Source: Cymodocea nodosa (lineage: Eukaryota; Streptophyta; Magnoliopsida; Alismatales; Cymodoceaceae). Taken from it: DNA of 64,000 nucleotides. This document shows, piece after piece, positions 7,561-64,000 of this stretch. The position numbers and the translations under genes were made by a program. The stretch's first letter is position 1; every line of letters begins with the position of its first letter. Below the pieces are notes generated by a model. The model worked only from the letters and a program-made list of their open reading frames with translations, did no database searches and was not told where the DNA came from. The DNA lies in NCBI GenBank assembly GCA_036874045.1, contig CM072339.1, positions 11,601,501 through 11,665,500 on the forward strand, given 5' to 3'.

Positions 7561-7875
7561 GGCAATTTAAACATAACTATTTGATACATATTCGGTCTAT
7601 TGAACATAACTGTCCGAATTTGTTCGGTATGTTAAACATAACTGTCCGAAATATCAGAATATTCGAATACTTAAGAATTTCACAGCCTGCATCTTACCGA
7701 CAGTTGATAAATGTACTAAATTAACATTAATTCCCCAAAATTAAGCAGATTCTTCAATTAAAGCATATAACAGTGCAATTATAACATAATGGCTTAATTC
7801 TTATATGATAAGCTAAATATTATGCAATTAACCATCATTTAACCGTTAATAATATGCACTTTTTCATTCTAAACA

Positions 7876-15148: not shown

Positions 15149-15625
15149 TGTAGGATCGTATGGCTACACAAGAGGGGGGGGTGAATTGTGTTTTTCAATA
15201 TTTTCTGAAATATAATTGAAACTTTAAAACTCAAAAACAAGTCCAGGCATTGTTTTCATAAAATCATTTTTATTCAAGGTTTCAATTACAATATAAAATT
15301 CAATTCTCCTCAGAAATTGTAGATGCAATTATAGCTCGATACCATGTATCATCTAAACAATTTCATAACTACAAACAGAGAAAACTAATTTGCGGAATTT
15401 AAAACATTTCTCCCTATTTGAGATCTTTCTTCTTCTTCTTTTTCTTCTTCAGCAGTTCTTCAGTGACGAATATCTTGTCTTTCTCTGCTTCACCGAATTT
15501 ACTTTCTTCTGATACTTTAAATCTTCAGTGACATAAATAATACCTATTTCTGCTTCACTGAATTTTCTTCCACCTGAGAGATTTTCCCCGAAGAGGTGTT
15601 TTTGATCCCTGAAAAATATTTTTCT
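15149..15625 (-). mobile_element. Copia-2 3' LTR, only the last 477 bp
   Basis: Matches the R/U5 end of the 5' LTR from its TGTAGGATCGTATGG border to a GAAAAATATTTTTC region, where it is fused to the extra ORF after PDVYSKMR. The purine tract and U3 are deleted. Confidence 0.85.
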
Positions 15626-16848: not shown

Positions 16849-16869
16849 AAAAGTTTTCTACTTTATTGA

Positions 16870-17760
16870 ACTCAATGTGATTAATTCAAGGAGAATAAAA
16901 GAATGTATCTCAAATAAACGTTTTCAAAAGTACTAATGTTGATTCAATAAATCAGTAGTCATATTGGTAGAAACTATATGCGATTCAAAGATATCTGTAA
17001 TTAATGAAACAACAATTTTTTTTTTTTTCTCAAAATAGTGAATATTGATAATTTTCTTTAAAAGTTAGTTTGAAAAGCTTGAATCATACAAGAGCTTTCT
17101 AATGTACTCGTGTAATGAGCTTTCAGTCAACAATCCCAGATCTGATCAGGACCTTAGGTTGCCAGATTTAAAGAATCCTTTTTCAGGACAACAATCCTTA
17201 CATACCTATCTGCTCAAGTACAAAAGTCTCGTGATCAAACTGATTAATAAACTCCCAAAGATTTTCACTTTGTAAGCACTTTTCATTTTAAGCATAGTAT
17301 ATATGTATTCCATTAATACAGATGCAATAAAACACAAATCTCATATAATTTTTACTTTTATGATTGTACTGAGAATATGAATCAGTTTCAATAAGCTTAT
17401 ACTTTTGATTAACAGTTTAAGATGAGTTACATATAACTTATTCTACAAGTTTAATCAATTAAGTCAAATTTATGCATGATCATATGCATTTTCCTTGATT
17501 CAAAGAAAACATTTAATCAAAATTTTAGAATGTCAGAAGTATTTAATGTTTTTCATTTACACTTCCACTTAAAATCGTAAAAACCATTAAAATTGATAAA
17601 CTACTTAAAATCAATAAGATACTACTATGATTTTACAATAAATACATAGTATCTTAAGCAGTAGTTTAGATATTACTTTAGATATTTATGATAAGTATAT
17701 AATATCTATGAGGTGAACAACATCATCAATAATATTTATCTTTTTATGTGGAGTTTAAGC
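16870..17760 (-). promoter_or_regulatory. Copia-2 promoter/intron-like segment (3' part deleted)
   Basis: Homologous to 62,990-63,973 of Copia-3. On the minus strand it has ATACATATATACT (17,293-17,307), then GATAG|GTATGTAAGG, with the intron start at 17,205. The intron end and the next start codon are missing through a deletion near 16,875. No gene in this stretch. Confidence 0.55.
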
Positions 17761-17763
17761 ATT

Positions 17764-20700: not shown

Positions 20701-20883
20701 ACAAGTTGGAGGTATTTGAACATTCCTCATACCTATGATTTTATCTTTGCTTTTGTTTCCAAATGTTACACTTCCTTTCATGGTATTTGTAAAATTTTGT
20801 AGTAGACTTTTCTGTCTGGTCATGTGACTTGACATTCCACTGTCCAAGATCCATTTTGATGTTGTTTCCTCCTGCAACACAAA
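17764..20883 (-). CDS. Copia-2 pol polyprotein (protease, integrase, RT, RNase H)
   Basis: A 1,038-residue open frame in Ty1/copia order. Protease active site D13 (ILDSG; the usual A after it is M). Integrase zinc finger H142, H147, C176, C179; catalytic D207 (HMDLFGP), D270 (RSDHGTEF), E306 (VVERKNR). Reverse transcriptase D638 (QMDVKS) and YVDD at 723-726. RNase H D887 (GYTDADY), E930 and D963, ending ADIFTKPLDE...ICRLCDV. All main catalytic residues are kept, but likely damage is visible: KTIAPMAW for the usual ETFAPVAR, CQNVVVE for QNGVVE. The first Met is simply the first in frame; the frame opens right after the gag stop (20,884-20,886). Confidence 0.93.
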   Translation of the reverse strand, partial: FVLQEETTSKWILDSGMSSHMTRQKSLLQNFTNTMKGSVTFGNKSKDKIIGMRNVQIPPTCVISNVLYVENLGFNLLSVIKLIENGYYVVFEDNVCKIIDKNIDEIKFIAKRKGSVCILSLPSSVIDLNSCLLAETSDAYLWHRRIGHINMKLLHKLSKKHLVRGLPKIKYSKDFMCDACELGKLHKNSFKSKTDILSKRVLELIHMDLFGPTRIMSLGGKRYVFVLVDDFSRYTWVYFLASKTEVFEKFKMFCNFVQNEQGVSIQKLRSDHGTEFDNDQMDNYCNEHGIDHRFSFPRALCQNVVVERKNRSLQEMAKTMLNEHKLPQILWAEAVNTACYVINRSYLRPHVNKTPSEIMFNRIPKISYMKPFGCKCFILNTKDKRDKFQAKSNEGIFVGYSTRSKAYRVYNKTSKTIEETLHVSFNENSLRESQSKADNDDMINFPNELEINREIDDLSEKIKNMNLNDQTNDESDGLSDVNENIEENQRNWHYYSSHPITQVIGDINEGVKTRASLNLNSMCMFVSMVEPRNIQEALSDENWIVAMQEELNQFIRNDVWELVSPPENQSIIGTKWIFRNKTNKTGQIIRNKARLVAQGYTREKGLDYDKTIAPMAWLESIRILLAYACYMDFKLYQMDVKSEFLNGLINEEVYVKQPPRFEDIKNPDFVYKLKKALYGLKQVPRSWYERLSTFLIEKGYITGKVDHTQFIKRDGKDQIVVQIYVDDIIFGATFNKLIEIFSEEMTNQFEMSMIGELSYFLGLQIKQMDKGIFLNLEKYADEMLKKFNFNDTRIQGTPMSTTLKLDIDDIGKSIDQRKYRSMIGSLLYLTTSRPDIMFAVYVCARFQSNPKESHLIVVKRIFRYIQGTKNFGLHYSKDSSIDLIGYTDADYAESNSDRKSTNGTCQLLGTNLVSWFSKKQNCVALSTTKAEYVAATLCCTQILWIRQTLEDFGFSYDTTEICCDSSSAINLSKNPILHSRAKHIEVRHHFLRDNVIKGKIKLEFVSSKNQLADIFTKPLDENTFCNIRLNLGICRLCDV

Positions 20884-23141
20884 TTAAGAAAAACTTTTTC
20901 TTGGTACCCAATGTTGTTGAGGACCAAGTTCATTAAACGCATATTTCTTCTTTTTGTTTAAAAATAGTTTAACATTATCATTTACATTCTTATTAGTTGT
21001 AAGTACTATAGACTTGTTTTTAACATCATACTTACTTATAGCATTATTGCTCTTATAATCATTCTTTTTTTTTCAGGTGTAGTATAATCAAGACCAAACT
21101 GATTTTTATAAGATGTTAATTTATTTTGGTCATGCTCATACATTTCAGTAAGTTCATATCAAGATTTTGTACTTGTATTTGAATTTTCAATGTATACAAA
21201 AAAATTTTCTGCACAAAAATTTTCAGTTTTATCACATGCAGAATAAGTAATTGGTCTAATACTAGTGTATCGAATTACATGCTCAGTTTTCTAAATTTTC
21301 AGTTTACTACAATCGTTTGAAATTTTAGAAACATTAGAAACTGAATTTCCAGAACAAGAAACAAGATTTTTAGTAACATTTATAATCATGTTAGAAGTAC
21401 AATTTGACAAATCACATTGATTTATATTATTACTACATGATTCATCCCTTGAAGTACCTACTTCTATATATTTATTACCTTGTTTCATAATAAAAGGAAT
21501 TTTAGTCTTAGATTTACTTGAATTGCAACTAATAAATCCCTTATTGGCTTGAGATTCAGGATATTTAGGATAATCAAATCCTAAGCCAAATTTATAAGAC
21601 ACTACAGGGGTACTAGTTAGTTTGTCTAACTTAGTTTGACTTAAATTCCATTTCTCAATGGTAGAATTTAAATCTAGCACTCTTAGTTTTAATTTATCTA
21701 TCTCTAATTCAAGTTCATTTGTATTGTTTCTCAACATTTCATTTTCAGATTCTATCTTTAATTTTTCAGCATTTATATTCTATATTTGTTCATGCAAGAT
21801 ACATTCATTAAATCTAAATTTTTGCTAATCTCTAGCATGATTTTCATTATCACATTTAAACTTTTCTAAAGTAGTAGACAGGAAACAATTTTCTTCTTCC
21901 ATAATTGATGAAGATTTTCTAATATTCTTATTTTCCAGTTTACATACTTTAAGTTTTTGTAATAATGCATGATAAGCACATAATAATTCGTCAAAGTTGA
22001 AATCTGAATGACTTTCAAGATTAGATATTACCTTAGACTCATCTGCCATGAAGCACACATGAGCAACGTCTTCTAGCTCTTGTTCTCCTTTTGAATGTGA
22101 AGATTTTGATGATAATTCCTCAAATTCAAACTCTTCAAACGTGTCATCCCAAGTGACCTTCAAAGCCTTTTTCCTATAAAAATTTTTCTGAGTTTTCTGA
22201 GCTGTCTTCTTCTGATTTGTCCTACTTTGCTTTTCATTTTTCCTCATAAGATAGTTTGGAGAAAGATGTCCAAGTTTCTTACAATTGTAACATACATATT
22301 TTCTGGATGAAGAATTATTGTCATTCAATGATTTTGACGTTGAGGGTTTATCATTCTTGTTCCTTTGTTGTTTCCTAGCTTTCCATGCTTTCTTGAATTT
22401 CCTAGTCAGCAAAATCAAATCCTCGTCAGAATCAGTAGAAATATCAGAATCCGAATTAATTTCGAAGGCTATTTCTTTCTTCATTTTTAGTTTGTTGTGA
22501 CTCAGTGATTCATTTAATTGAACTTCATAAGCTGTTAAATTTACTATAAGTTCATTCATAGTATAAACATTTAAATCTCGTGATTCCTCAATTGATGTTA
22601 CTTTCTGAGACCATTTAGAACTTAGAGATCTAAGAATTTTCCTCACTAAATCCTTCTGTTCAAAATTCTTTACTAAGCATTTTAAGGAATTTATGATATC
22701 AAGAAATCTAGAAAACATCTCAGAAATACTTTCATCTTCATGCATCTTAAAGAGTTCATACTTATGAATCAACATGTTTATTTTAGTCTCTTTAACTTCA
22801 GAAGTACCTTCATGTGAAACTTCTAATGCATGCCACACCTCATAAGCAGATTTATATGCCGACACTTTACTGAACTATTCATAACTCAATGCACAAAATA
22901 AAATATTTAAGCCCTTAGCATTTAGAGTTTCATTTTCTTTTTCAGTAATTGTCCAAGTATTATAAGGAGTAGTTAACGGAGTATATGGTTTAGAAATCAT
23001 GAACCACAACTTATGATCTATACTTTGAAGAAAAACAGTCATCCTATATTTCCAATATTCAAAATGTATTCCATCAAATAAAGGAGGACGATTAAGATTT
23101 TGGCCTTCATATAATGAAAAATTACCATTTCCAGTAGCCAT
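20884..23141 (-). pseudogene. Copia-2 gag
   Basis: Begins MATGNGNFSLYEG, the same start as Copia-3. N-terminal copia-type capsid domain (YWKYRMTVFLQSIDHKLWFMI; then EMFSRFLDIINSL and LVRKILRSLSSKW). A zinc knuckle near 22,235-22,300 reads CYNCKKLGH with the last Cys replaced by Tyr. Then an acidic region and a long coiled coil (NEMLRNNTNELELEIDKLKLR). It ends WVPRKSFS-like followed by TAA. Stops at 22,875 and around 21,780-21,830 and an indel in a T run near 21,063-21,072 break it. Gag forms the particle that packages element RNA. Confidence 0.9.
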
Positions 23142-23327
23142 CTTACCTTAGATTTTTCAACCTATTTGATTTTAAACAGTCTAAAAACTTTAACCCAACT
23201 TGAGCCTTAAATCAAGAAAGTTAAACGTATGCTCAGATATTAATGTTTGTTTAAAAACAAGGAAGGTAGAATAAGCAATGATATTAATTAAGTTGGTATC
23301 GATTTTATATTAAAGATTATTAACAAA

Positions 23328-23339
23328 GTTATGATACCA
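23328..23339 (-). other. Primer binding site of Copia-2
   Basis: Minus strand TGGTATCATAAC, two bases after the LTR end. The family standard is TGGTATCAGAGC, complementary to initiator tRNA-Met; bases 9 and 11 differ. Confidence 0.8.
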
Positions 23340-23341
23340 CT

Positions 23342-24995
23342 TGTAGGATTGTATGGCTACACAAGAGTGGGGGTGAATTGTGTTTTTTAATATTTTCTGA
23401 AATATAATTGAAACTTTAAAACTCAAAAACAAGTCGAGACATTGTTTTCATAAAATCATTTTTATTCAAGGTTTCAATTACAATATACAATTCAATTCTC
23501 CTGAGAAATTGTAGATGCAATTATATCTCGATACCATGTATCATCTAAACAATTTCATAACTACAAACAGAGAAAACTAATTTGCAGAATTTAAAACATT
23601 TCTCCCTATTTGAGATCTTTCTTCTTCTTCTTTTTCTTCTTCAACAATTCTTCAATGACGAATATCTTATCTTTCTCTACTTCACTGAATTTGCTTTCTT
23701 TTGATACTTTAAATATTTAGTGACATAAATAATACCTTTTTCTACTTCACTGAATTTTCTTCCACCTGAGAGATTTTTCCCAAAAAGGTGTTTTTGATCC
23801 TTGAAAAAGATTTTTCTTTTGGTGTGCAGGGATAGTCTAATCCTTGAAAAGATTTTTCGTTTTGTGTGCAAGGATAATTTGATCAACAAGAATTCTATGC
23901 CTTTTATACTGTATCTTCATTTCATGCATATCCTTCACGTTTAACCACTACTAGTTTTCCACTTCTTCACGTCTTTTCTTTTTCCATCATCTTAATACAC
24001 ATGTTCTGACCTACATTTACATTTCGAATTTTTTTTACTCATTAGTCTTGGATCTCTGAAAATTCCTGCAAAATAAACTTTCTCATCCAAAAATTTTTCC
24101 ATCAAGTGTAATAAGAAGTCGTTACTTTAATGTTAACTAAATGAGTAACACAAGTATATATATATAACTTAACGTTTCTAGCTCAACGAGTTCCTCATGT
24201 GCCATTTCACGTCACAAGTACTTTAGCTAACTCAACGAACTAAGTCTGTGGTGTTACGCTACCTCAACGAACTAGCTTAACCTTTCTTTCAAAAGGTTAA
24301 ACGATAACTCACCGAAAATAGTTTAAGTTTCGGATAGTTACGGTTGTAAGTCTCCGAAAAACTTTAACTCATCGATTCAACAATAAACAAATATTTTTAT
24401 AATAAGAATTTTACCATGTGCAAAAATAACAACTTAAGTTTATAACGCTAACCTAACGCGTTGCCTTAGTGTTCAATATAGCAACTCAACGCATTTAGTT
24501 ATGTTAACTTAACGAGTTAAACATGTGCACCTCACGCGATACAATATAACATTCATAACTTATATTTTCATCACGTGTATAACACTAACTTAACGAGTTC
24601 GTCTCTTCTTTTACACATTAACCTAACGAGTTCTCAAGTGACCTATTTTAACCTTTAAGCCTCTTACTTAACGAGTTCTCACGTGACCTCTATACAAACA
24701 AAACTCTAACTTAATGAGTTGTCTAAACGTGCACTGTTCATGATACAGAAGATATAACTTTAAAACATATCATGTTTTTCACTAAAAACACACGTTAACT
24801 TAACATTTAGTTAAATGAGAAATTAATGCAATGAAACGACTAGTTATTAACTTCAAATCCAATACAGACAAGTATTTATGTCAGTAAGCTTTTTTTGTAT
24901 TAATTAATGATTTTAATTTCTTTCACAAGCAATAATAATTGAGCAAATATGATTATTTTCATTCAACCCACATCATCAAAACAAAATACTCAACA
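23342..24995 (-). mobile_element. Copia-2 5' LTR
   Basis: 1,654 bp, TGTTGAGTATTTTG...ATCCTACA. U3 (about 24,150-24,990) carries CACGTG/ACGTG and TAACTTAACGAGT (ACTCGTTAAGTTA) repeats plus one AACTCACCGAAA...TTTCGGATAGTTA pair (about 24,308-24,360). TATA box TATAAAAG at 23,901-23,908. The U3 start abuts AGGTG. Confidence 0.92.
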
Positions 24996-29353: not shown

Positions 29354-31268
29354 ATAAGCTCAGTGGGCAATCTAGGAGTAACAAAGGAAAGAAACTAAAG
29401 AACAAGAGGAGCTGATTGTTGAAAGACCTGTCCCTAAGGAACAGTAGCCAGGACCTTCGATTCCACCTCCTAAACCACTAGAAAGGGTGGTAGTTATGAG
29501 GCCTTCCATTGAAGAAGAATTAAGAGAATTTGAAGAATTGGTTCAAGTTGGGAAAAACCAAGGAGAACCAAAAGATTTGGTAGTAGCTAAAGCACACCTA
29601 GTGTTTGATGCACTTTACAAGAGAAAGGTTGTAGAAAAGTTGAAAGCCCAATATAAAATTAAAGTTGAACAGCATCAAGAAGCCACTACCAGATTTACTA
29701 CAAAAGGAGTTGAAGCTAGTCCTTCGAGACCAGCAATTATAGAAAAAATTAAACAGGAAGAGCCAGTCCCTATGGCTCAAAGGCCTGTAGAGCCCATTTA
29801 TGTAGGCTTAATCTTAGAGGAAGAAAAGGAAGACTAGGCACAATTAATCAAAAGAAGGAAAGGAAAAGATATAGTGCTTGAATATCAAGAGGAGATTAAA
29901 TCTGAAAGATTAATATCAATAGGGCCTATAGAGCCAAATTTTGTAAACCTGCTATCCGATTCTAAGGATGAGTAGTAGCAGCAGCAGCAACAAGATCAAA
30001 GAGAAGAAGAAAATCAGGTTGAAATTAATCTACAGCCTGTACAAATAGAAGAAACAGAAATTAGGGTAGAAGCTGATTTGCCCGTAACTCCATCCCAATC
30101 TGCCATAGAATCAGAAAGAATAGTGACATTGCAGATTGGTAGTCAGGAGGAAGAAGAAAAAGAAAAAAATGAATAAGAAGCTGAACAAGTATATATGGAA
30201 AGAGATGACTCGACAGATTCCATTGAAGAGTAAAGAACTCTTCAACAAATTTTGGATAGTATTCAAGATAGAGTGGAGAGTTCTATCGGCTCACCACCAC
30301 AGACAGAAGTAGAAGCAAATATTCAGGAATCTGTGGAGCATCTTCAACAAGTACAAGTTCAGCATTTGAAAGAGGAAGTTTAAGAACAAACCCTTATAGA
30401 GCAACAAATGCATATTCCTAATCCTTCTGAAGCAATAGTTTTAAATGAAGTACATTTCTAGAGTCAAGAAGCTTATGACGAATACCAAAAGATTAGGGGT
30501 TATGATATCATTTATAGTAGACCAGTAAATTGGGACGAAATGCAAGAAATCAAAGATTTATTTGAATTCCAAGGTCTATTGCAATATATTTCTCAAGAAA
30601 GAGGGCATGTAGTATATGAAAATCTAGTGCCCTGCTTTTATGCAAACTTAAGAGAAGGAGAAGGAAGATTAATTTCCAACATGGAGGAAGTTGATGTACA
30701 GATAACACCAAAGCTTCTCCACAACATTTTGGGATTGAAGAATGAAAGATTGGAAATTCTGGAAAGCACAACTACAATCGAGTGGACAGAGTAAGCAATA
30801 AAGGATTGTTTAGCTATCAATCCTAGTGTGCCCTTGTTAAATAGACTGAAGCAGCTAAATGGTACAGCACACATGATAGCTAACATTCTAATTAAGAATG
30901 TCTACCAATGACAAGGCCATGATATAGAACTGAGTCAATTTGTCAAATGGGCCACATATGTAGTTGGGAACAGAATTCAGATAAATTGGTCTGCAGTTTT
31001 CATCTCCAAGCTGAAAGTAGTAAAGAAGAAATTATTTTATGGATATCTGATTCCACTACTGATGGTGGACTGTATTGATTTCACGAAATGGGCATCTAAA
31101 ACGATTAGATCATGAACTATTTCAATGAAAGAATACAGAAATTATGTAGCTGCAGAGATTGTTGAACCTTCTAGAGGAATTACAGGAGCTGTAGAAAGGA
31201 TTAACCAATTAGAGAAACAAGTAGAAAAGCTCCAAAAGGAAGTAGATGAACTTAGGAGAAAAGATTAA
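29354..31268 (+). pseudogene. Gypsy-Z upstream ORF, plant transposon-like protein
   Basis: About 637 codons in a single frame with roughly ten stop codons and no frameshift. A Lys/Glu-rich N-terminal part (EELREFEELVQVG) and a long acidic Gln/Glu-rich middle (QQQQ near 29,978; EEEEKEKNE) lead to the PF20167-like core near 30,540-30,790: IKDLFEFQGLLQYIS, CFYANLREGEG, then LLHNILGLKNE. A helical part follows (GNRIQINWSAVFISKLK), then a C-terminal coiled coil (INQLEKQVEKLQKEVDELRRKD). Domain order matches the extra ORFs of Copia-1, -2 and -4. The first ATG after the insertion edge is at 29,496, but the true start is lost. Function unknown. Confidence 0.72.
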
Positions 31269-32065
31269 AATTGTATTGTTCGTCTACTTGTAATTGTATA
31301 TATTTGTATGAAAAATATCTAACTGATTGTAATATATACTATTCATATAAATGAATGTATGTTTTTCAGATGTTTTTGCATTTGTGTTTGAGAATGATGT
31401 ACTGGATGAATTATTTTGAATATTATATAATTTGTGGAACATTATGCAAGATTGTTTAAAAGATTTACAATTTGTTGAATGACAGGATTAAATGAAAGAT
31501 AATTGATTAATGACTAAAAATATCTGCATGCTACAAAGTAAAATATAAATTCTACATCACATGAAATGAACTGCAAGTTAAATATTTATATAGTGTTCAG
31601 ATGTAAATGTGTTTTAATTAGAATGCTGCATTAATGACATGTATTTAATTTTATTTAAGTTGGAAAAATGTAGGAGAGAAAAAAACATAGAAGTTAATAC
31701 GAGTAAGTTTTAGAAAACTACCTAGTGTTAACTCAACGAAGTAAGTTTGTTGAGTTAACCTTAACTCCACGAGGTCAATAATATAATATAAGGTCACTCC
31801 GTTGAGTTATCTGTAAATCAACGAAGTTAGTCCGTGGAGTTAGCAACAATAGCTGAAACTAGTCTGTTGAGTTATCTATAACTCAACAAGGTTAGTTCGT
31901 GGATTAAGCTAAATGGTTATTCCTTTAGCCACGAATAAAACTTCGTGGGTTTAGCGGTTACTGAAATTTGAAATTAGAAGTGGCACACGTATCCATAAAA
32001 ATAGGAACCATATTGCACGTTACAAGACATGTTCTTGCAATGAGATTTATTTGCTTTATAGGCGT
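31269..32065 (+). other. Gypsy-Z spacer between extra ORF and gag, with palindrome array
   Basis: AT-rich, no gene. About 31,722-31,935 carries TAACTCAACGAAGTAAG...GTTGAGTTA and related inverted motifs. Homologous to 41,107-42,060 of Gypsy-Z'. It continues at 34,677 beyond the solo LTR and leads into gag at 34,962. Confidence 0.7.
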
Positions 32066-34671
32066 TGTAAGGAGTAAAATTGTGCTAATTTATATAGGAT
32101 TATTCATGCTTATTAGAGCTTAAATGATACATAATGCATGTTTATAATTGAAATACCATAACTTTGGCATTTATATGATTATGCATGACTATTGAAGTAA
32201 ATGACTTAAAATTACACAATTTAACTCTTTATTTGATTATGACTTAAATGATAATCGAAATGAATGTTGATTAATACTTAGATGCTCTATGTTATATTAT
32301 TTTCATGTCTTGTTATCTTTTAATGTGTTTGTTTAAGTTTAGTAGGTAAATAAAGAAGGGATTTTTGAAGTCTCACAAGGGCAAGAAATAAAATAGTAAA
32401 AGAGACTTGAGGGTGTTTTTGGAACAACATCCAAAAGCCCCAATTCTCTCCCTTTAAGAGACAACCTAGGGCCTTCTTGGAGACTATCTCCCAGGACTCA
32501 AACGAGCCAAGCTCCCTCCACCTAAGGCAAGCTCCATTCAAGCAAGGGAGGCTCCCCTCTTCTTCTCCAAGGCCGGGTAAGGTTACAAAGGAGGCTTAGA
32601 CTTCGACTCCCTCCTTCCTTTCTTCTTCCTTGGGGTGTTGAGGGCTTAGATCTCCATCAACTTCTTGTGTGGTGCTTTGACATGGGAGGAGGAGAAGGTT
32701 CAGATCTTGTTTGGATGTGTGGCTCCCCCTTTTGGTGGTTTGGTGACAACAAACTTCATTTGGGGCTTGAAATCTACATAGTTGAAATAGGAGACAAGCT
32801 AGGGTATGGCAAACTTGTGTCTTGAAGCAACCATCATGGATTCCACTCTCTTGGAGGACATGGAGGAGGGGTGACAGCCCAGGTCTTCTCCTTACAAGGG
32901 ACGTGCATCATCATTCAGAGGTGGAAAGCTTGCTCCAAGTCTAAGGTAGAGCTTCAAAGGTATTTCGAGGAGGAGATCAATCTTGTTTATATGTGTTTTG
33001 CTCTTCATTTTGTGTTTTTTCTTGATGTATGTAAAGACTAATGAATTTTCAGTAGTTATAATGTTATTTTTACTTTTATTTGAATGTGTGAATGATCCCC
33101 TTTCGTGATTTATGATTGTATAGTGTTTATATTGTGAATGGGTGCAAATAGTTGTGAATGGCTTATACAGAATTCTGTCTTCCTTGTTTTCAGATTTAGT
33201 GTTCATTTATTTTGTTCATATCTCAAGTTTTTCTCAATATTTTTCTTCGATTCTTATGTTGTTTTTGTAGAGAAATAAAAGACGATTTTTTCTGTATACT
33301 TTGTTTAATTTTTTGAGTACTTTTGGTGTGATTTTTCTATTTTCTTTAGGAGAGTACATTCTCGGTTTGAAATCACATTTTCGGTCATTAGCTTTGCGGA
33401 AATGTCTAATACTATTTCTCCCTCTATACATCATATTTTTACGATCTGTAAATTGGGTTTGTTATATTGATAAGTTTATTTTCATTGAACGGTAATTTCA
33501 TAGAATTTCATGAATAATTGATAAAGTTGTCAAGTTTTTACTGGAAGTGCGCGTTCTGTAATATTTCAAAACTGTTTTGCGCACCTTATTAGTTTTTGAT
33601 GTTATTTTCACTTTAGAATGATTTAGAATGTAAAATCACCGTGTATATTTAGAAAACTTAAAACCCTTTCGAAAAAATATTTTTTCATAATTTTTCAATC
33701 CTTATTTTGGGAGAAATCGTTGTCACAATTAGAGCTATTTTCTGTGATTTCAACGACCAAGTTAGGAAGGAATGAATTTTTGTAGTTCCGGATTCTATGC
33801 AAATAGAATCCTTGCCTTCTATTTCTCCTTTCAAAAAGTAGGTTTTCCGTAGAGTTTTTTAGTGTTTCTTGATATGATTTTGTAGGAAATTTTATGTAGA
33901 TTACAATTATGTAAGTTGTGTAATTTTTAGAAATGTATTTCTTTAGTTTTTGATTTTTTCTTCCAGAGGTTGCAGTAATTTCAAATTTTTGTTTGAGTAC
34001 CAGATTTAGTGCTTGACGCTTGAGTGTTGCCTGTACTGTAATCTTTGTATAAAATCATTCTATTAATTTTCCTTAGTAGTAATACAAGTCTTCGTTCAAA
34101 GCCCTCTGATTTCACAGGATTTAATGGAGTTTTGATTGAGTTACAATTTTTGCACCGAAGGTGCGATTTTGGAAAGTTTCCAGAACAATTCTGCGCCCTA
34201 TCAGTAAATCCGATATTTCTAGAGTTCTATAATGAGTTAATCTACGAAATCACTTCTCTCGAGAATCTTTCCAACCAATATTTTATCTAGATTTTTGAAT
34301 GCCCAGGTTGGAGGAAAAGAGAGTTAGAAATTAGGCCTCACTTCTATGATTTCAAGGCTGAACTCATTGATTTTCTTGAGTTTCCTAAGGGTTAACCTTA
34401 GGAACTTATTGGATTATGGGTGATATTTGACTCTTCATTATACTTATGTAATTTTTACCTATTAATTTATAAGTAGAATTTTTATTATGACTTTAACGAA
34501 GTAAATGTTTTGCTAAATAATTATTTCCATGAATTCAATTAAGACAAGCTCCTTGTGGATCGACTCGCTCTTACATATGCTTAATACAATAGGTACCATG
34601 CGCTTGCGGTTTATAAATGTAAAATTTGGGTTTTTCATGTATTTAATTGAATAACAACAAATTACCTTACA
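32066..34671 (+). mobile_element. Solo LTR S1
   Basis: 2,606 bp with inverted ends TGTAAGG...CCTTACA, flanked by GGCGT (32,061-32,065) and AGCGT (34,672-34,676), a 5-bp duplication with one mismatch. The uninterrupted sequence is seen in Gypsy-Z' at about 42,050-42,070. Near its end it has CTCCTTGTGGATCGACTCG and a CGCTTGCGG stretch, common near plant gypsy LTR ends. Homologous to the solo LTR at 49,186. No coding capacity, no primer site. Strand chosen by these end motifs. Confidence 0.82.
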
Positions 34672-34676
34672 AGCGT

Positions 34677-34961: not shown

Positions 34962-36210
34962 TTGGACTTTAACAAAATCCTTAGGGGTGTAGCTAACCTT
35001 TCTTTAAAAGAGAACAAAGATATGGCGGCTCTAGTAGAAAAACCATTAGGAGAAATTTTGTATCTTGAATTAGTTGATGAACTTTCATGCATTCGATTGC
35101 CAAACTTTGAGGGAGATAGGTTTGAACTGAAATCTAATTATATTAGTCAATTACCACATTTTCATGGATTAGAAAGAGAAGATGCCTATTATTTCCTTAG
35201 AGAATTTAATGAAGTTTGTCAAATGATGAAAATGTCGAACATGAGTATAGATGCTATTAAACTTAGATATCCTTTTGCTTTAAAAGATAGCTAAGAGATG
35301 GTTATATACTCTATTGCCTGATTCAATTTCTTCTTGGACTGAATTTTGCTCCGTTTTCCTAGAAAAATATTATCTAACACATCAAACAATTAAAAAGAAA
35401 AAGGAAAAATTAATGTGTAGCCAAAAATAGGAAGAATCATTTTGGAAATATTTTGAAAGATTTAAAGATTTACTGACTCAATGTCCACATCATGCAATGA
35501 GTAAAGCACAATTAATAGGTATAATTTATGAAAGCATAGATGTTTCAACGAAATCTTTATTAGAATCTACTTGTCAGAATGGATTTTTAAAACTCTGTAG
35601 TGAAGAAGCATGGGCATATTTAGAAAACTTTGCAAAAAGAACTACACAGTGGGAAAATTCGGTTGAAGCTATTGTAGATAAAAGAATATTGCCAAGAGGA
35701 ATGCATGAAATAGATTCAAGCACTATGCTTGAAGTCAAATTAACTGAATTAACAAAGAAAATAAAAGAGTTATCATTAAATCAAAAACTAGCAGAAAAAA
35801 ATGCAAACGTTAATGATTTAGATATTATCTATGCTAGAAACTAAAAAGATAACTTTGCAAGTTCTTATAATCCTAATTGGAGAAATCACCCGAATTTATC
35901 TTAGAGAAACAACAATTTTCAGGGAGGAGAAAATATAAATGACAAGAATATAAGTTATGAAGCATTAATTGAATAAGGTTCTAAAATAGAGAAATTAGAA
36001 AAGATAATCCAACAACTAAACAATCGTCTAGATCTTGTATTTGGAAATGTTGCAATGCAAAATCAAAATATGAATAGAAATGTACCACCTAGACAGAAGG
36101 AATCAATGGAAGTTAGACCTACTGGAGGATTGCCAATGCAAGCAATACCTAACCCTATCAACAGAACTATTAATGAAATTGATACCTCCTTTGGGAGGGT
36201 AGCTGAATGA
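34962..36210 (+). pseudogene. Gypsy-Z gag: Athila-type capsid without zinc knuckle
   Basis: The retrotransposon gag capsid pattern is clear: LPHFHGLEREDAYYFLREFNEVC, LKDS plus RWLYTLLPDSISSWTEF (one frame over), FLEKYY, FERFKDLLTQCPHH, then YESIDVSTKSLLESTC and EEAWAYLENFAKRT. The tail has SSYNPNWRNHPNLS, the Athila signature that normally follows the zinc knuckle. No CX2CX4HX4C is present between LTELTKKIKEL and that signature, so nucleocapsid is missing. A 1-base loss near 35,292 and stops near 35,430, 35,844, 35,904 and 35,975 break the frame. Gag makes the virus-like particle. Confidence 0.87.
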
Positions 36211-36289: not shown

Positions 36290-36427
36290 TAGTAATATCG
36301 TAGAGTTATTACTTAACTCAATGAACTTAGTCCGTTGAGTTATGACCTAACTCCACGAAGGTGTGAAGTAGCTATGTTAATTTTGTCTCTGTTAAATTTT
36401 TGTTTATGTTATACAGAATCACAACAA
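36290..36427 (+). promoter_or_regulatory. Motif array upstream of F-box pseudogene
   Basis: TAACTCAATGAACTTAGTCCGTTGAGTTA (an imperfect palindrome, about 36,313-36,341) followed by TAACTCCACGAAGG, then an AT-rich leader to the ATG at 36,428. Same motif family as the LTR arrays. Whether it drives the captured gene is inference. Confidence 0.4.
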
Positions 36428-37566
36428 ATGGAATTGATGAAATTACCACTAGATGCACTGAAGGAAATACTAAGTAACATGTCAGCTAAAGATCTATGTA
36501 GAACGTGTTGTGTATCAAAAGAAATCAAAGACTATATCAGAGAAAAATACTTTCATGGACTACAAGCTTCAAAAATAACTAAGATTAGAGATGAATTTAT
36601 ATGGAAGTCATTTAATCGTAATTCAATCAGCTATGAGTATCTGAATATGAAAGAAACTACTTGAATTCCACCCAATGCATTAAAAGGAATAGATCATATT
36701 ATGGGGATGGATGACAGATTAATTATTTACAGAACTAAACTAAGGTATGCAATTCTATTACCTGATATTTTGATTAGAAATCCGATCACAAGAGAAGAAT
36801 GGAATATAGGAAGACCTAATAGATATGAAGTACCAACTGAAAATTGTGGGTCAGCTTTAATTTTTTCTGATAAAAATTTGACAATTCTTGAAAAATTATA
36901 TTATTGGAGACCAATTGGAAATTGGGATGAAGATTTATGCTTAAGTGTGTATAATTTTTTGAATAGATCTTAGACTAAAAATACTATGATATATCTAGGA
37001 CAGAAAGCTTTAATTAATAGCATGCGTGTCATACTTGATGGATATATATATATAGTCACAGATATATCAGTTGCATATAGATTTGATTTATACATAGTAA
37101 GCATAGACAGTTATGATGATTTTATAGAAATATTACCTATACCGAGTGATATAGCTAAACCACCGACTTTAGAATATGATCAAAAGTCCAAGTAGGAATG
37201 TGGTACAATGAATATGATGATCCTACTTTATGTTTGATAAGATGGTGGGATGAATTGAAGAAATTTCAAATATGGATTATAAAAGACCTGAATGAATGGA
37301 AGTGGGAAGAGGAATATATTGAAATAGATATAGAAATAGAAACAGTTACATTATCTTGGAACAGAAGAAGATCTCTTTCTGCATTTCATTTCATTAATGG
37401 TAATACACTTGTATTTAGTATTGATAATATATTGCAAGTTTACAAGCTAAAAAGGAAAACGAACTGCATTAAAATAGAATTAATAGTAAGAAGAATTATG
37501 CCTAAAAAGTTTGCATCGACTGACACATTTATTCCATTTGTTACTACTTTTCAATCATGCTCTTAA
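36428..37566 (+). pseudogene. F-box protein (F-box plus FBA-like) retro-pseudogene
   Basis: About 380 codons, a usual length for plant F-box/FBA proteins, which act as substrate receptors of SCF ubiquitin ligases. F-box at residues about 6-38: LPLDALKEILSNMS, then LCRTCCVSKEIKDYI. The FBA-like part has IRNPITREEW, later FQIWIIKDLNEWKWEEEY and a C-terminal IPFVTTFQSC. Broken by stops at 36,662, 36,971 and 37,193 and a frameshift near 37,195. No intron is visible, and a 12-base A run follows the stop after 42 bases, so it looks like a processed copy. It lies exactly where pol should be, between gag and the post-pol signature. The donor gene cannot be named. Confidence 0.8.
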
Positions 37567-38154: not shown

Positions 38155-39088
38155 TTTACTATTCATACAAATCTAGATATAGTATCTTATGTTTTTGCTG
38201 AATTTTATGAGTTTAACAGTTTCACGATTTTAAAATGAAAACAGAATGTTTAACTGAAACTTAATAAATTATCTGAAATCCTGAAAGAGCTGAAATGTTG
38301 ATTTTTAGATTAAACGAAATACATATGATCAAAGATACATTTAATTTGATTGATTAAACTTGTAGAATGATTTATGTGTAGATCTTATTAAACTATAGAA
38401 AAAAGTATGAGCTTATTGAGATGGATTCATATTTTTAGTAAATAATAGAAGCAAGACTATATGAGATTTGTGTTTTATTGCATCTGTATTAATGAAATAC
38501 GTATATATACTGTGTTGAAAAGAAATAAAAAATAAAAAACTTTGAGAGTTTATTAACTTGTTTGATCATGAGCCTTTTGTACTTGAGCAGATAGGTATGT
38601 AAGGATTGTTGACCTAAAAAGGACTCTTTAAATCTGGCAACCTATGGTCCTGATCAGATCTGAGATTGTTGACTGAAAGCTCGATACATGGGTACACTAG
38701 AAAGCTCTTGTATGATTCAAGCTTGTCAAATTAACTTTTAAAGTACAAATATGCATATATTGTTCTGAAAAGATATAATCGTTTTGTGAAACACAAATAT
38801 CTTTTGAATCAAGTATATTTTCTGTTATCTAAGATTACTGAAGTATGTATCTAGAATAAACTTTTGAAGTTGTTTATTGGAGATACAATTCTTTATTCTA
38901 CTTGCCTTAATCGTATTGAATTGGATTGTATTTTGATTTGTATGTTGTTGAAATTTATTCTGGAAATCTTATTAGAAAATTCAAGATGACAGATGCTGAA
39001 AAGAAGAACAAATGATAATATAATTAACACCTATGTGATGCTGATATATTTTGTATGTAATTTACATATATTCTAAGTATATTTGCAG
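38155..39088 (+). promoter_or_regulatory. Promoter/leader/intron-like segment of Gypsy-Z
   Basis: Contains GTATATATAC at 38,501-38,510, a leader of about 85 bases, the splice-donor-like GATAG|GTATGTAAGG (intron start 38,595) and acceptor TATATTTGCAG (end 39,088), a putative intron of 494 bases. After the acceptor only eroded frame remains (GTTGAAGAGGAG..., no ATG). Homologous to Gypsy-Z' 42,530-43,490, Copia-3 62,990-63,973 and Copia-2 16,870-17,760. A promoter with spliced leader is inference. Confidence 0.6.
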
Positions 39089-39249: not shown

Positions 39250-39268
39250 AATTTAAGTATAGAGGAAG
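39250..39268 (+). other. Polypurine tract of Gypsy-Z
   Basis: AAATTTAAGTATAGAGGAAG directly before TGTTTAGAATG; the Gypsy-Z' version is the better conserved ATGGGGGAAG. Confidence 0.7.
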
Positions 39269-41106
39269 TGTTTAGAATGAAAAGGTACATAATATTAATG
39301 GTTAAATCATGGTTAATTGCATAATATTTAGCTTATCATATGAGAATTAAGCCATTATGTTATAATTGCACTATTATATGCTTTAATGAAAGAATCTGCA
39401 TATTTTCAGGGAATTAATGTTAATTTCGTATAATTTTGAACTGTCGGTAAATTATAGGCTGTGAAATTCTTAAGTATCCAAATTGTTTGTTATTTTGGAG
39501 AGTTATATTTAATGTACCGAATAGTTATGTTTTAAATGCTAAAAGAATTTGCAGGTACACAGTAACAACTCATTGAGTTAAAGGCTTAAATGTGTAAAAG
39601 GTATGGTAACAACTTGTTGAATTAGTGAGTAAAAATCATAAGTTGTATATCTGAACTCGTTAAGTTAGATTTATGCACGTGTTGAATTTAAATGTTTTAG
39701 TACATCACGTGAGATGCACATGTTTAACTCGTTAAGTTAGCATAACTGTATGCGTTGAGTTACATGAATACACACTAAGGTAATGCGTTATGTTAGTAGC
39801 TTATTTCTTTATTGCACATGTTTTATAGTTAAATCAATGAAGTAAGTCCATTGAGTTATCAGTAACTCCATTGACCATATATTTTCTAATATGCCACTAT
39901 AGCAGTTGTAGAAACAGGACATTCGAAGAAAGATCACGATTACACGTATCACGTAGGAATTCACTCATTGAAGGAAGAAGAAATCACCATCGTTGATATG
40001 AATGAAGGAAATCTAACTGATCAATTAAGCGGGAGCAGTTACTACTATAGGAAATATAAAAGATGCAAAAAAAATGTGTAGGGTGTGTTGGAGAATCGCG
40101 TTAATTGCAGGCAACGTCGAAAGTTCCTTGAAGCTCCACACCAACACTAACACCAACACCATCATCACCATCACCAACCATCGAAGGTCTGTGAGGATAC
40201 TTACCTGATGTCGGGTCGATTCTGAGCCAAACACAGTGCCTGACAACCACTGTGAGGAGTGATCATGTCGTAGAAAGGGAATCCATTTTCACCAAGCATC
40301 GGTTCATATCTCAGGAGATTGTAAAGCTTCTAGCCTTGATTTTAGGTTGATGCCAATATACTGAGAAGGAGATCATCTTGCAATTCTGGACTTGCGATTC
40401 TATAGGGAGAGGAGACAGGATTGTAAGTGACTAAATTTTCAGTGGTGTAATCGCGTCGCATGTAGTGACGAAAGTTTTTATTGTCGATAGAGATTTTTAC
40501 ATTTCACCTTTCATTCATCTTTAGGAACACATTAAAAACAAAAACACCAAAAACAATTACTTATTTGTGTTTACAGTTTGTATTTAAATGTTGTATTATT
40601 TGTTTTGTATTGTGATTAATGTTAGTGTTGTTCGTATTGTGAATGTTTTATGTTTGATTGATTCAGAAAATAGGTAATAGTTTTATAGTTTACTGAAATT
40701 GATTCATTCTAGATACTTAAAGATTTCAATGGTTACTATTTGAAATATTTGAATGTTAGTGTTGCTCAATGATAAATCTAATCTTAGATAGCATCAAAGA
40801 GCTTAATTGATGTTATTTACAAGCTGTGGAATCGCCCAATGGTTGGTTGAATTCCTCTATAATTAACAGTATTGTTAGACTTGTGGAGTTAATTTAAGTA
40901 CACGAAGTTAGTTCGTTGAGTTAGCCATAACTCCACGAACTAGGTCCGTTGTGTTAATTGTAATTCAACGGAGTGTTTACTGAACACATAAATTCCAATA
41001 TAAAAATCAAAACAGTACACAATTTTTAGTTTAACTCTTTTCACTATGGAATCGACCTGTACTTGCACACAAATACAATATACACTGTGCACTTGTAGTT
41101 AAAACA
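39269..41106 (+). mobile_element. Gypsy LTR shared by Gypsy-Z and Gypsy-Z'
   Basis: Starts TGTTTAGAATGAAAAGG; TATA box TATAAAAG at 40,055-40,062; ends at GCACTTGTAGTTAAAACA, about 150 bp short of the true end seen at 44,455. The U3 tandem 138-bp units of Gypsy-1 are absent. The sequence that follows is the last codons (GATGAACTTAAGAGAAAGGAC) and stop of the upstream ORF, so a deletion removed the LTR end, the primer site and most of that ORF. Confidence 0.85.
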
Positions 41107-41589: not shown

Positions 41590-41930
41590 TTAACTCAACG
41601 AAGTAAGTCCGTTGAGTTAACTTTAACTCCACGAGATCAATAAGAATAAAATATAAGGTCACTCCTTTGAGTTATCTGTAACTCAACGAGGTTAGTCCGT
41701 AGAGTTAGCAAATAGGCAACGAAGCTAGTTCGTTGAGTTAGCTATGACTCAATGAGATTAGTTCGTTGACTTAAGAATAGTAACCAAAGCTAGTCCATTG
41801 AGTTAGCTGTAACTCAACAAGATTAGTTTATTGAGTTAGAAATAGTAACCAAAGCTAGTCCATTGAGTTAACTGTAACTCAACGAGGTTTGTTCGTGGAT
41901 TAAGTTGAAGGGTTATTCTTTTAGCCATGA
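41590..41930 (+). repeat. Palindromic TAACTCAACG / CGTTGAGTTA array
   Basis: More than ten copies of TAACTCAACG-like and GTTGAGTTA-like motifs in alternating orientation, for example TAACTCAACG-AAGTAAGTC-CGTTGAGTTA (10-bp arms). The unit with TAGTAACCAAAGCTAGTCCATTGAGTTA recurs about every 60 bases. Densest array in the window. Confidence 0.8.
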
Positions 41931-53032: not shown

Positions 53033-55617
53033 TCACAAGCCTCTTTGTCTTTGAAAAATATCAATCAGGGTATCTAAAATTTTCTTTGCAATATCTGTAC
53101 TAACTCTGTTTATCTGATCAAGTAATGCTTAATCTAAATCATTTTGAGAAACTTGTGATGATTGCTATAAAAATTCAGTATGTATGTCTGTATCTATACC
53201 TGTATGTATTTCTCTATGTATACCTTGTTGAATATATGTATGTATATCTTGTTGTATATCTGTATGTTGCTGTGTTTTTGTAAATTCTACGGATTGTTGC
53301 TGTGTTTGCCGAACCTGTTGTTGTTGTTGTTGTCTGAGGATAGGTGTATCTGCTGCTTGGTATTTTTGGAGTTCCTTTGTAGAGAAAGATCGTGACTTTA
53401 ATCTTTTCTATGGCCAAGGTGTAATATCTGTTTGACTTACCACAATTCTCAAAATTGTATCACCATAAAATAATTTACTCTGCAAATGTAAAATATGAGA
53501 AACAAAAATATCATACCAGTTCACTTGTATATGGTTGATTAATGTGTATGTAGCATAAAGACAACATGACCAAACCTCTGAAACAATGTAGCATGCAATA
53601 TTTTTGCAATAAAACGTGCTTGGCCATTTAAGTCATTTAGTAATGTCAATGGTTTGTTGGCAGTTGGATCTTTGGCTAAACTTGTAATGTCCTATCCCAA
53701 TCGATAAACCTGTTTTCTTTCTAATAATTTAACTCCATTTTTTAGACCAAGTACCTGATGAAGTAAATTTGGAGTTAAATATATGTCATTTTCTTGTATA
53801 TTAGAAACAAGAATACCTTCTTCCACTGTTAAGTTTGAGTAAAAACAACTGAGAAGTTCGGGTATAGCAAGATGGCCTGGCTATTGTGGAAGTAGAGTCA
53901 ACAAGCCTTGAAATTCAAATAGTTCACGTATGTGTGCCATCCCTTCAAACTTAACTGGTCTTGAATATAAAACTGTAAATGTTTTATATGTCTGAAATTT
54001 GTCATAACAGGAATTATTTCTTAACCATAATAGTGTATTTGCATCTAAACTCTGTTTAGGATTAGGTATTTTCCTGTCATGATGTTCTAATCTAGGACTT
54101 GTTTCAATATTATCTACAGCATCTATATTGTCAGATCGTTCAGAACTGGTGGAATTTGTATCAAAACTAGTATAAATGTCTGAAATATCTATTATTGTCG
54201 TATCAATAATCTGCTGAATTTCTTCTATTTGTTCTTCTGGAAACATTTCAATAGCAATAGTCTCTATAACAATCTGTATATCAACAACCTGTATATCTAT
54301 ATGTGATCTATACAACTGTCTCTGTATGAAAGAATGTTCTATATCTGTTTGTGGAATAGAATCATCCTGTATTTCTGAAATTTGTATATGTGAGACATTG
54401 GTAGTATCATATTCTATTTGTAACGTTGTACGTTGTTGATTATATACATTTATCAACAAGTATACGATATATTGTAACAGGCATAACCATACATATAAAG
54501 TGTAGTATAAGCAACTATACCAAAATCAAAAGTCTCTGTTCGAGATACAGTAAGAGGAAGAATATCTGTACATTCCTCTTCAAATGAAATATCTTCAAAA
54601 TTCATAGACTTAGTGTCTATGTCATCAATAATATTATCAAATTTGATATCATCTGTATATATATCATCAAAATTTCCTACATTCTCACTTTCCATAGGAA
54701 AGAATGTGTGCTTGCAGCATTGTGTGAAAAACTGTCCATTGTATTAAAAGATACATTATGCACTAATGTGACACAATACCTTAGAGTATATGCTTGTAAG
54801 CCAATATTTGTCACATCTGTTGGGATTCCTGACAAAAATGTCTATCCAGCTTCTGTAATGGAGCATAGTTTTCCATTTTTCACTAATTCTTCTTTTTGCT
54901 GCAATATTCCTTGTACAACTGCAGTTAGTCCAAAATATTCAATTGCCTTTTTCTTTGTCCGACTATATGTCTACAGTGTTTCAGGTTGTTCAGGAGGTTC
55001 TAAAATTGTCTTAATTTCTCCTGTTAAAGGCACCTGTTGTCTTGATGGTCCTTCACCATGATGCCTAGGTGGTAATAATGGAATATAGAGTTTTAAGTTC
55101 TCCACCTCTGCCATTTTGAGTTGATAAACTCTTTGTCCTTCACTACGAAGGCCTATTTTGCTAATGGCAATTTTCTGTTCATTGATATACTGTTTAATAT
55201 CATCTAAAATAGCTAGGGGAAAATAATGTTGGGAATACAAGGATTGTAATTCCCTGTTTGCATTTTCGATCATTGGTCCCCACTTCTTTCCATAATAAGT
55301 GATAGACTGTATTGATGTCTTTGGTACATGTCCAAAACTTACAATAGTAGGGTTAGGTTGTAAATTTCTTTTCCATAAACGCAATGCGGAAAGTTCTGTC
55401 TATTATAGTCTAAACTATGTTTCAGCATAATTTCGAATAAATTTCCAACAGAAATTTTTCTCATCTTGAACAGCTTTTCTGATTTCGTGTAGTACTTTGT
55501 TTGAAAAAGTGTACCAGGAGTAAATATCGTTGATTTCATTCTGCATTTTCTGAAGTTCCAACTCTCTTTTCTGCACTTTGGTCATTCTACCACATCCTCT
55601 TCCACATCCTGACATTG
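53033..55617 (-). pseudogene. Copia-4 extra ORF, plant transposon-like protein (longest copy)
   Basis: About 860 codons with several frameshifts and stops. Start MSGCGRGCGRMTK at 55,617, close to the MSK start in Copia-3. N-terminal helical part, then the segment ending in VENLKLYIPLLPPRHHGEGPS. An acidic middle follows (near 54,695-54,540), then an Ile/Asp/Thr-rich region (54,459-54,000) and the PF20167-like core at about 53,960-53,690: IRELFEFQGLLTLLPQ, FYSNLTVEEG, LLHQVLGLKNG. A Gln-rich tail (QQQQQQ near 53,310-53,330) and a terminal helix ending DTLIDIFQRQRGL. It shows the domain order best. Function unknown. Confidence 0.7.
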
Positions 55618-55756: not shown

Positions 55757-57340
55757 TGTTGAGTATTTTTGTTTTGATGATGTGTGCTGAATGAAAATAA
55801 TCATATTTGCTCAATTACTATTGCTTGTGAAAAGAAATTAAAATCATCAATTAATACAGAAAAAGCTTACTGATTTAAATACTTGTTTGTATTGGATCTG
55901 AAGTTAATAACTAGTCGTTTCGTTGCATTAATTTCTCATTTAGCTAAACGTTAAGTTAACATGTGTTTTTATTGAAAAACATGATATGTTTTAATGTTAT
56001 ATCTTCTGTATCGTGAACAGTGCACATTTAGACAACTCGTTAAGTTAGAGTTTTGTTTGTATAGAGGTCATGTGAGGACTCGTTAAGTTAGAGGCTTAAA
56101 GGTTAAAATAGGTCACGTGATAACTCGTTAAGTTAGTGAGTAAAAGAAGAGACGAACTCGTTAAGTTATTAGTGTTATACACGTGGTGAAATTATAAGTT
56201 ACGAATGTTGTAATGTATCACGTGAGGTGCACATGTTTAACTCGTTAAGTTAACATAACTAAACGCATTGAGTTGCTATATTGAACACTAAGGCAACGCG
56301 TTAGGTTAGCGTTATAAACTTAAGTTGTTATTTTTGCACGTGGTAAAATTCTTATTATAAAAACATTTGTTTATTACTGGTTCGTTGAGTTATCATAACA
56401 CAACGAAGATGGTTCGTTGAGATAGCATAACACCACAGACTTAGTTCGTTGAGTTAGCTACAGTACTTGTCACGTGAAATGGTACATGAGGAACTCGTTA
56501 AGTTAGAAACGTTAAATTATATATATACTTATGTTACTCGTTTAGTTAACATTAAAGTAATGACTTCTTATTACACTGATGAAAAACTTTTGGATGAGAA
56601 AGTTTATTTTACAAGAAATTTTTCAGAGATCCAAGACTAATGATTAAAGAAAATTTGAAATATAAACGTGGGTTAGAACGTGTGTGTTTCGATGAAGGAA
56701 AAAGAAAAGACATGGAGAAGTGGAAAACTGGTAGTGGTTAAGCGTGAAGGATATGCATGAAATGAAGATACAGTATAAAAGGCATAGAATTCTCGTTGAT
56801 CAATTTATCCTTGCACATAAAACGAAAAATCTTTTCAAGGATCAAACCATCCCTGCACACCAAAAGAAAAATCTTTTTCAAGGATCAAAAACACCTCTTC
56901 GGGAAAAATCTCTCAAGTGGAAGAAAGTTCAGTGAAGCATAAAAAGGTAAGATTTTCGTCACTGAAGATTTGAAGTATCAGAAGAAAGCAAATTCGGTGA
57001 AGCATGAAAAGACAAGATATTCGTCACTAAAGAATTGCTGAAGAAGAAAAAGAAGAAGAAGAAAGATCTCAAATAGGGAGAAAAGTTTTAAATTCCGCAA
57101 ATTAGTTTTCTCTATTTGTAGTTATGAAATTGTTTAGATGATACATGGTATCGAAATATAATTGCATCTACAATTTCTGAGGAGAATTGAATTGTATATT
57201 GTAATTGAAAGCTTGAATAAAAATGATTTTATGAAAACAATGTCTCGACTTCTTTTTGAGTTTTAAAGTTTCAATTATATTTCAGAAAATATTAAAAATA
57301 CACAATTCACCCCCCTCTTGTGTAGCCATACGATCCTACA
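55757..57340 (+). mobile_element. Copia-3 5' LTR (complete)
   Basis: 1,584 bp, TGTTGAGTATTTTTG...ATCCTACA. U3 has (T)CACGTG and ACTCGTTAAGTTAG pairs at about 56,035-56,270 and GTTCGTTGAG motifs at 56,380-56,455. TATA box TATAAAAG at 56,774-56,781. R/U5 has AAGAAGAAAAAGAAGAAG near 57,041-57,062 and ends ATTCACCCCCCTCTTGTG. Confidence 0.93.
56774..56781 (+). promoter_or_regulatory. TATA box of Copia-3 LTR
   Basis: TATAAAAG in the context ATACAGTATAAAAGGCATAG; identical box on the minus strand at 23,901-23,908 in the Copia-2 LTR. Confidence 0.75.
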
Positions 57341-63973: not shown

Positions 63974-63987
63974 GGGTAGGATTAACA

Positions 63988-64000
63988 ATGTCGAAAACAG
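63988..64000 (+). CDS. Start of Copia-3 extra ORF (cut by window end)
   Basis: ATGTCGAAAACAG: only Met-Ser-Lys-Thr is visible. Position and the ATTAACAATG context match the Copia-4 extra ORF start (ATTAATCAACAATG, Met-Ser-Gly). The plant transposon-like ORF is predicted to follow. Confidence 0.45.

Follow-up and report, generated by a model that had tools for sequence, protein, structure and literature searches.

The window analysed here is a 64,000-nucleotide stretch of the Cymodocea nodosa genome (C7:11601501-11665500), and searches were extended to the whole 375-Mb genome. Both Ty3/gypsy and SIRE-type Ty1/copia retrotransposons occupy the window, and a non-coding stretch of about 1,000 letters is common to the two kinds of element. 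Four copies of this segment are present; Z and Z' belong to a gypsy family, and the other two lie in the SIRE-type elements Copia-3 and Copia-2 (Table 1).

Table 1 Features of the window (positions count from its first letter; a slash marks a splice-site-like boundary).
Feature	Position	Strand	Remarks
Segment copy Z, gypsy family	38,138-c.39,180	+	strong homology up to 39,089, weak similarity thereafter to ~39,180
Segment copy Z', gypsy family	42,533-c.43,595	+	acceptor changed to AA
Segment in SIRE-type Copia-3	63,017-64,000	+	continues beyond the window edge
Segment in SIRE-type Copia-2	16,869-17,650	-	3' part deleted
Constrained core	38,310-38,745	+	TATA-like box, leader, donor and 150 bp past the donor; tightest at 38,580-38,745
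TATA-like box TATATATAC	38,502-38,510	+	exact in 17/37 gypsy copies
5' splice-site-like ATAG/GTATGTAAGG	38,591-38,604	+	GT at 38,595
3' splice-site-like TTTGCAG, copy Z	39,082-39,088	+	sequence motif
Intron-like stretch of Copia-3, GTATGT...TTTGTAG	63,467-63,973	+	507 nt
First ATG past the Copia-3 acceptor	63,988-63,990	+	14 nt beyond the acceptor; 5 codons only (MSKTD, stop)
Copia-3 5' LTR	55,757-57,340	+	poly-C end, PBS TGGTATTAGAGC
Copia-2, SIRE-type	~15,150-24,995	-	CACCT on both sides; clean nested insertion in a gypsy pol region
X2 5' LTR	5,610-7,875	-	2,266 bp; PBS TGGCGCCGTTGC from 5,602 down, 7 nt past the LTR end
X2 protease, RT, RNase H, integrase	861-4,696	-	Pfam matches 1455 to 4696; none for 861-1451
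Env-like ORF of copy Z	29,355-31,266	+	contains stops; upstream of gag
Gag of copy Z	35,025-35,850	+	PF03732, 6.9e-5, slightly under cut-off; behind pol and env-like gene in X2
F-box gene of the gypsy family	36,437-37,563	+	PF00646, 2.8e-11; between gag and segment
LTR of copy Z	39,266-41,103	+	behind segment and PPT; last ~145 bp missing relative to X2
Shared LTR block	39,567-39,796; 9,477-9,706; 56,078-56,309		outside gag and pol
Palindromic boxes	447-544; 31,727-31,908; 36,298-36,359; 41,663-41,903

The domain order of Copia-2, with rve (200-297) ahead of RVT_2 (557-799; window 17764-20883, minus strand), is that of Ty1/copia elements. Inspection by eye of the junction between the LTR 3' end and the PBS, CCCCCCTCTTGTGTAGCC...CCTACA AG TGGTATTAGAGC, reveals a poly-C-rich signal. 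The PBS TGGTATTAGAGC is presumably of the Met type. In both Copia-2 and Copia-3 an env-like gene, broken by stops, follows pol and precedes the 3' LTR, and the 4 synonymous and 10 non-synonymous differences over 273 bp give no sign of purifying selection on this gene since insertion. No palindromic boxes with a CGG-CCG core were seen by eye upstream of env; the boxes found there are of the CGTTGAGTT/AACTCAAC type. A poly-C-rich integrase signal at the LTR end and a conserved 5' LTR/PBS junction are described as SIRE/Maximus traits, and a palindromic motif is reported in 13 Sirevirus elements, one of them without the CGG-CCG core (PMC2829016). Among the 120 matches listed of 5,369, those with a name are plant copia-type proteins, the best of them standing at 56% over 97-99% or 65% over 48%; many others are unnamed. 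No relatives of the copia pol were found in viral contigs. In a search of limited reach that drew 8 candidates from 5.8 billion, a piece of the env-like protein gave 1 match (P0121, 88% over 65%).

The element that the sequence-only reading had called Gypsy-Z is a member of a 17.4-kb family with one complete copy, X2 (C7:11591992-11609375), which is bounded by the 5-bp target-site duplication GGCCT. X2 occupies positions 1-7875 of the window on the minus strand, continues to C7:11591992, and is inserted within a SIRE env-like gene. Its parts are arranged in the order LTR-PBS-pol-env-like-gag-F-box-segment-PPT-LTR, which places gag downstream of pol, and its pol domains follow the gypsy order PR-RT-RH-INT. 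The PBS TGGCGCCGTTGC is presumably of the tRNA-Asp type, an Athila-like feature, and the family is termed Athila-like rather than ordinary Athila because gag lies behind pol. With that position, Gag would not be obtainable from the usual gag-pol message. Parts of the X2 gene order recur at further places on C1, C15 and C19 and in the window. Tandem elements were considered and rejected, as the conserved sequence that follows the LTR match proved to be the true LTR end.

Several further features of this family were observed. The F-box passenger gene precedes the segment in 10 of 12 gypsy units, and in X2 an open frame of 341 aa without a Pfam match of its own lies behind the F-box domain (L166:4477-5502, minus strand). 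Copy Z contains a 2.6-kb stretch at window positions 32,060-34,674 that is missing from Z', and pieces of it recur at 68-69% on C1 near 8.37 and 8.385 Mb.

A segment shared by gypsy and copia elements

The homology of ~0.93 kb that had been noted at four places in the window was confirmed by alignment. Z aligns with Copia-3 at 76.1% over 942 columns (601 bits, E ~1e-173) and with Copia-2 at 76.3% (515 bits), and Z' aligns with Copia-3 at 76.3% (605 bits). Within a 311-bp core, identity in the copy alignment rises to 87%, compared with 76% over 0.9 kb. A genome search with the gypsy copy found 5,715 places, the best 40 of which are 91-94% identical when the window's own are set aside; the corresponding search with the copia copy found 4,432 places, with 97-98% identity for the best 40, its own place aside. 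The 15-mer AAATCTGGCAACCTA, located in the core and common to both element types, occurs 3,956 times in the genome (1,922 + 2,034), whereas its reversed control occurs 0 times. The segment is highly repeated in the genome and exceeds what chance would give, and the earlier proposal that copia and gypsy superfamilies share it is borne out by alignments of 515-605 bits and by the 15-mer count. The same exact 15-mers and the 601 bits of the Z/Copia-3 alignment rule out a low-complexity or chance match as the source of the similarity.

Exact 21-mers and 18-mers of the segment were absent from viral contigs, and the 21-mer was absent from genome contigs. Matches of 16-mers in viral (24) and bacterial (at least 119) contigs were rejected as chance, BLAST at E 1e-3 against 143 sequences giving no match.

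Conserved coding sequence is ruled out as the content of the segment. Stops interrupt all sense frames of the four cores and all six frames of five segments of ~0.8-1 kb, in which the longest stop-free run per frame spans 22 to 84 aa; antisense open runs reach 68 aa in both copia members and 30 to 84 in gypsy copies. Rfam, applied at gathering scores to the whole window, yielded no match to a known RNA family. The intron-mediated-enhancement motif TTNGATYTG is not enriched, the share of shuffles that reach its count being 0.155 to 0.855. The gypsy cores contain two short two-copy families of internal repeats and the copia cores none.

Conservation of the core and its signals

In the alignment of the four window copies, each change was assigned either to the deep branch between copia and gypsy or to the tips. 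Deep-branch changes affect 45 of 433 core columns and 87 of 297 flank columns (Fisher p=1.7e-10), whereas private tip changes affect 41 of 433 and 34 of 297, respectively (p=0.39); the contrast between deep and tip changes across core and flank has p=0.005. These p values are optimistic because the limits of the core were set after the alignment had been viewed. The tightest 166 core columns contain 8 deep changes; had one of the two branches been neutral, more would be expected (binomial 5e-5, on the assumption that the branches are equal). Among 33 younger gypsy copies, private divergence is 2.5% in the core and 2.3% in the flank, and none of 4 older or outlying gypsy copies shows a difference between core and flank. 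Of these, only X2 gives a hint of slower change in the tight core (4/157 vs 29/448, p=0.067). The deep-branch contrast and the even private divergence indicate that the constraint predates the spread of the present copies, which have decayed evenly since insertion. A neutral hitch-hiker, left over in both families from past recombination and without a role, would account for the uniform tip divergence in both families and for gypsy units with no gene behind the segment, yet it is very improbable in the face of the strong deep-branch contrast between core and flank.

The best-conserved part of the segment is the block with the TATA-like box, the leader and the 5' splice-site-like motif. A TATATATAC-like box does occur in all four window copies, as had been read from the sequence, with ATATATAC as the copia form, and so does ATAG/GTATGTAAGG, within GATAG in Copia-2, Z and Z' and within AATAG in Copia-3. 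The acceptors named with them are present too, TTTGCAG in Z, where it closes an intron-like stretch of 494 nt, and TTTGTAG in Copia-3, where the stretch measures 507 nt; the two are locally matched in the alignment. The donor is the top-scoring GT within each of the four segments; with a donor scoring matrix, 32 of the 6,280 GT sites of the window (both strands) score at least as high as the segment donors, those four included.

The signals were then counted in 39 distinct aligned segments, namely 37 gypsy-type segments and the 2 copia copies of the window. The gypsy sample comprises 31 from the best-40 matches to Z (8 of the 40 were left out), the window's own, and 5 further units in the flanks of these; it is not random and is skewed toward relatives of Z. 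Of the 37 gypsy copies, 36 retain the donor GT (average over 49 GT sites, 32.4) and 34 have an intact donor 10-mer ATAG/GTATGT, a count that exceeds the 90th percentile (32) of segment 10-mers. The acceptor AG survives in 29 of the 37, below the mean of 57 AG sites (32.0). TATATA or TACATATA occurs in 34 copies and the exact TATATATAC in 17, in a sequence that is very AT-rich.

A strong, conserved donor with a less conserved acceptor would also suit a splicing element in the full-length RNA, used either to splice the LTR transcript in retroviral fashion or to bind U1 snRNP and so restrain premature 3' processing; splicing of env-like messages is reported in other plant elements (PMC7264820). 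Such an element is improbable here. A genome search allowing up to 2 mismatches found no copy, among ~4,000, in which the named donor and acceptor are joined, and the two near matches to the spliced junction are unspliced copies with an inserted GG. Nor is there an excess of RNA structure, with z between -1.04 and -0.02 in four sense cores and of -1.60 and +0.42 in two antisense ones. The absence of spliced copies is informative solely for packaged and copied RNA; a message that begins within the element would leave no copy.

AACAATG occupies an equivalent aligned position in Copia-3 and Z'. Together with the layout of promoter, leader, intron and ATG, and with the host-type F-box gene already carried by the gypsy family, this would fit the capture of a host gene's 5' end, comprising promoter, an intron in the 5' UTR and start codon, by one family and its later passage to the other, with loss of the coding part. 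The capture is nonetheless quite improbable, given that ACAATG occurs in just 5 of 37 gypsy copies, that the similarity extends beyond the ATG without an open frame, and that no host gene is found among the best 40 places of each genome search.

Genes and LTRs behind the segment

According to the sequence-only reading, the ATG that follows the Copia-3 acceptor starts an extra ORF, and the segment belongs to a mobile second transcription unit that drives a downstream gene. The frame opened by that ATG ends after 5 codons and is also present in a second SIRE copy (L193; by eye). The env-like frame of Copia-3 starts beyond the window edge (L152), 519 bp past the acceptor, and nine ATGs intervene. 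Its ATG has a TATA-type TATTTAAA (CTATTTAAACAC) of its own 91 bp upstream, and CGTTGAG-type boxes are also found upstream. With this short distance to the env ATG, and with the segment farther off, TATTTAAA/CTATTTAAACAC is the nearest candidate for an env promoter. ACTTAG/G in the env leader (L152, L193; read by eye) could accept a longer intron from the segment donor.

The gypsy flanks differ in what they hold. Eleven of 12 units (L153-L163) have ~150 bp and then an LTR behind the segment, too little space for a gene; in the twelfth (L162), ~150 bp are followed by no LTR match. An LTR also follows the segment in the two gypsy copies of the window, in X2 and in two further units on C1 and C15. 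CGTTGAG-type boxes precede other genes of the gypsy elements, though they are absent ahead of the segment.

A path from segment to acceptor, next ATG and extra ORF is thus wrong for Copia-3 and ill-fitting for the gypsy family, and the claim that the segment drives a gene behind it is unsupported: in the latter, 11 of 12 units have no room for one, and in SIRE elements nine ATGs and a separate TATTTAAA stand ahead of the env-like frame. What survives of the proposed promoter-plus-intron module is the most conserved block, that of box and donor (donor 34/37); the acceptor, at 29/37, is conserved below average.

The relative position of the segment is equal in the two families, between the end of a gene and a region of boxes and TATA motifs. 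The SIRE layout is pol, segment, boxes, TATTTAAA and env, and the gypsy layout is F-box gene, segment and LTR with boxes. This, the acceptor and ATG that are functionally not kept, and the lack of CGTTGAG-type boxes ahead of the segment would fit some other cis element, such as an enhancer, an insulator or a 3'-processing region, that parts one element gene from the next promoter. An element of that kind is somewhat unlikely, and alone it would leave the well-kept donor 10-mer (34/37) unexplained.

Candidate regulatory modules common to the two families

A block of ~240 bp is also common to gypsy and SIRE-type LTRs (73-75%, 163 bits), positions 302-531 of the Z LTR corresponding to 322-551 of the copia LTR, and shorter LTR stretches, one of them inverted, are common to both families as well. 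The gag and pol stretches of the copia and gypsy families within the window give no DNA match at E 1e-4. As the segment and the LTR block do match, the shared part is regulatory-type DNA. The env-like proteins of the two families are ~33% related.

The window encodes three env-like proteins, diverged members of one superfamily (53,360-54,525 minus; 30,414-31,266 plus; 7,874-8,452 plus); they belong to the copia family, the gypsy family and a third, unassigned element and share 33-49% amino-acid identity. One gypsy env-like piece matches PF20167 at E 0.0014, below the cut-off. Beside the third env-like gene, an open frame of 142 aa (54,971-55,399, minus strand) has no above-cut-off Pfam match. 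Palindromic CGTTGAGTT/AACTCAACG boxes stand ahead of the gypsy env-like, gag and F-box genes and recur in the gypsy LTRs; the same type of box is found in the copia family ahead of env (L152 ~5280-5390) and within the LTR. The boxes ahead of each gene are possible candidates for separate promoters.

The reading preferred here, tentatively, is that the segment is an exchanged cis-regulatory module that most likely passed from SIRE to gypsy elements, in SIRE perhaps a distal env promoter and leader, and in the gypsy family a module without a gene to drive. The transfer between superfamilies would have proceeded by recombination or template switching, and SIRE is the likelier source because the segment there occupies the known pol-env linker. 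Of the readings that remain, the most specific, though a weaker one, makes the segment a distal internal promoter and leader for env in SIRE. It would consist of the TATA-like box, a first exon of ~65 nt and the strong 5' splice site, and might feed the env-like gene jointly with the nearer TATTTAAA promoter; splicing would then run to an acceptor close to where env begins, and not solely to the one named originally. In the gypsy family the segment may at best be a 3'-end regulatory or read-out element.

A broader proposal is doubtful. Copia and gypsy elements here may trade promoter and leader modules as interchangeable parts, including the segment, the ~240-bp LTR block and the CGTTGAG-type boxes, and the permuted gypsy genes behind an LTR-driven pol may each be preceded by boxes of their own, which would make gag and env separate transcription units not expressed from the LTR.

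The pre-ENV linker domain of Sireviruses (Bousios et al. 2010, PMC2829016) resembles the segment in its position from pol to the env-like gene and in the palindromic repeated boxes near env. However, the linker boxes are of the CGG-CCG type, whereas those seen here are of the CGTTGAG type and lie downstream of the segment, not inside it. The word 'intron' is absent from the main text of that paper, and the portions of it considered here make no mention of such DNA being shared with gypsy elements. Grande gene23 of maize (PMC7264820; PMC11963269) is likewise part of a plant gypsy element, within its long 3' region, and is an accessory gene with its own promoter, but it is antisense (PMC7264820), whereas the layout here is sense and the gypsy segment has no gene behind it. 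The ORF3s of bdelloid rotifers (PMC5408684) are also accessory modules distributed across very different retroelement types and are typically separate transcriptional units with spliced messages; the module shared there is an ORF, and here it is non-coding DNA. Splice sites are used or predicted in the env-like messages of the plant elements BAGY-2 and Athila, although the portions of PMC2829016 and PMC7264820 considered describe no shared internal segment with TATA box and leader for these elements.

Study of the segment also brought to light a gypsy family in which gag follows pol, and non-coding DNA common to retrotransposon superfamilies is of a kind that escapes classification by protein domains. 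An internal promoter has been proposed for the expression of Sirevirus env, and none has been conclusively identified (PMC2829016). The segment and the TATTTAAA stretch are concrete, high-copy candidate regions for the expression of SIRE env, with exact predicted 5' ends and junctions.
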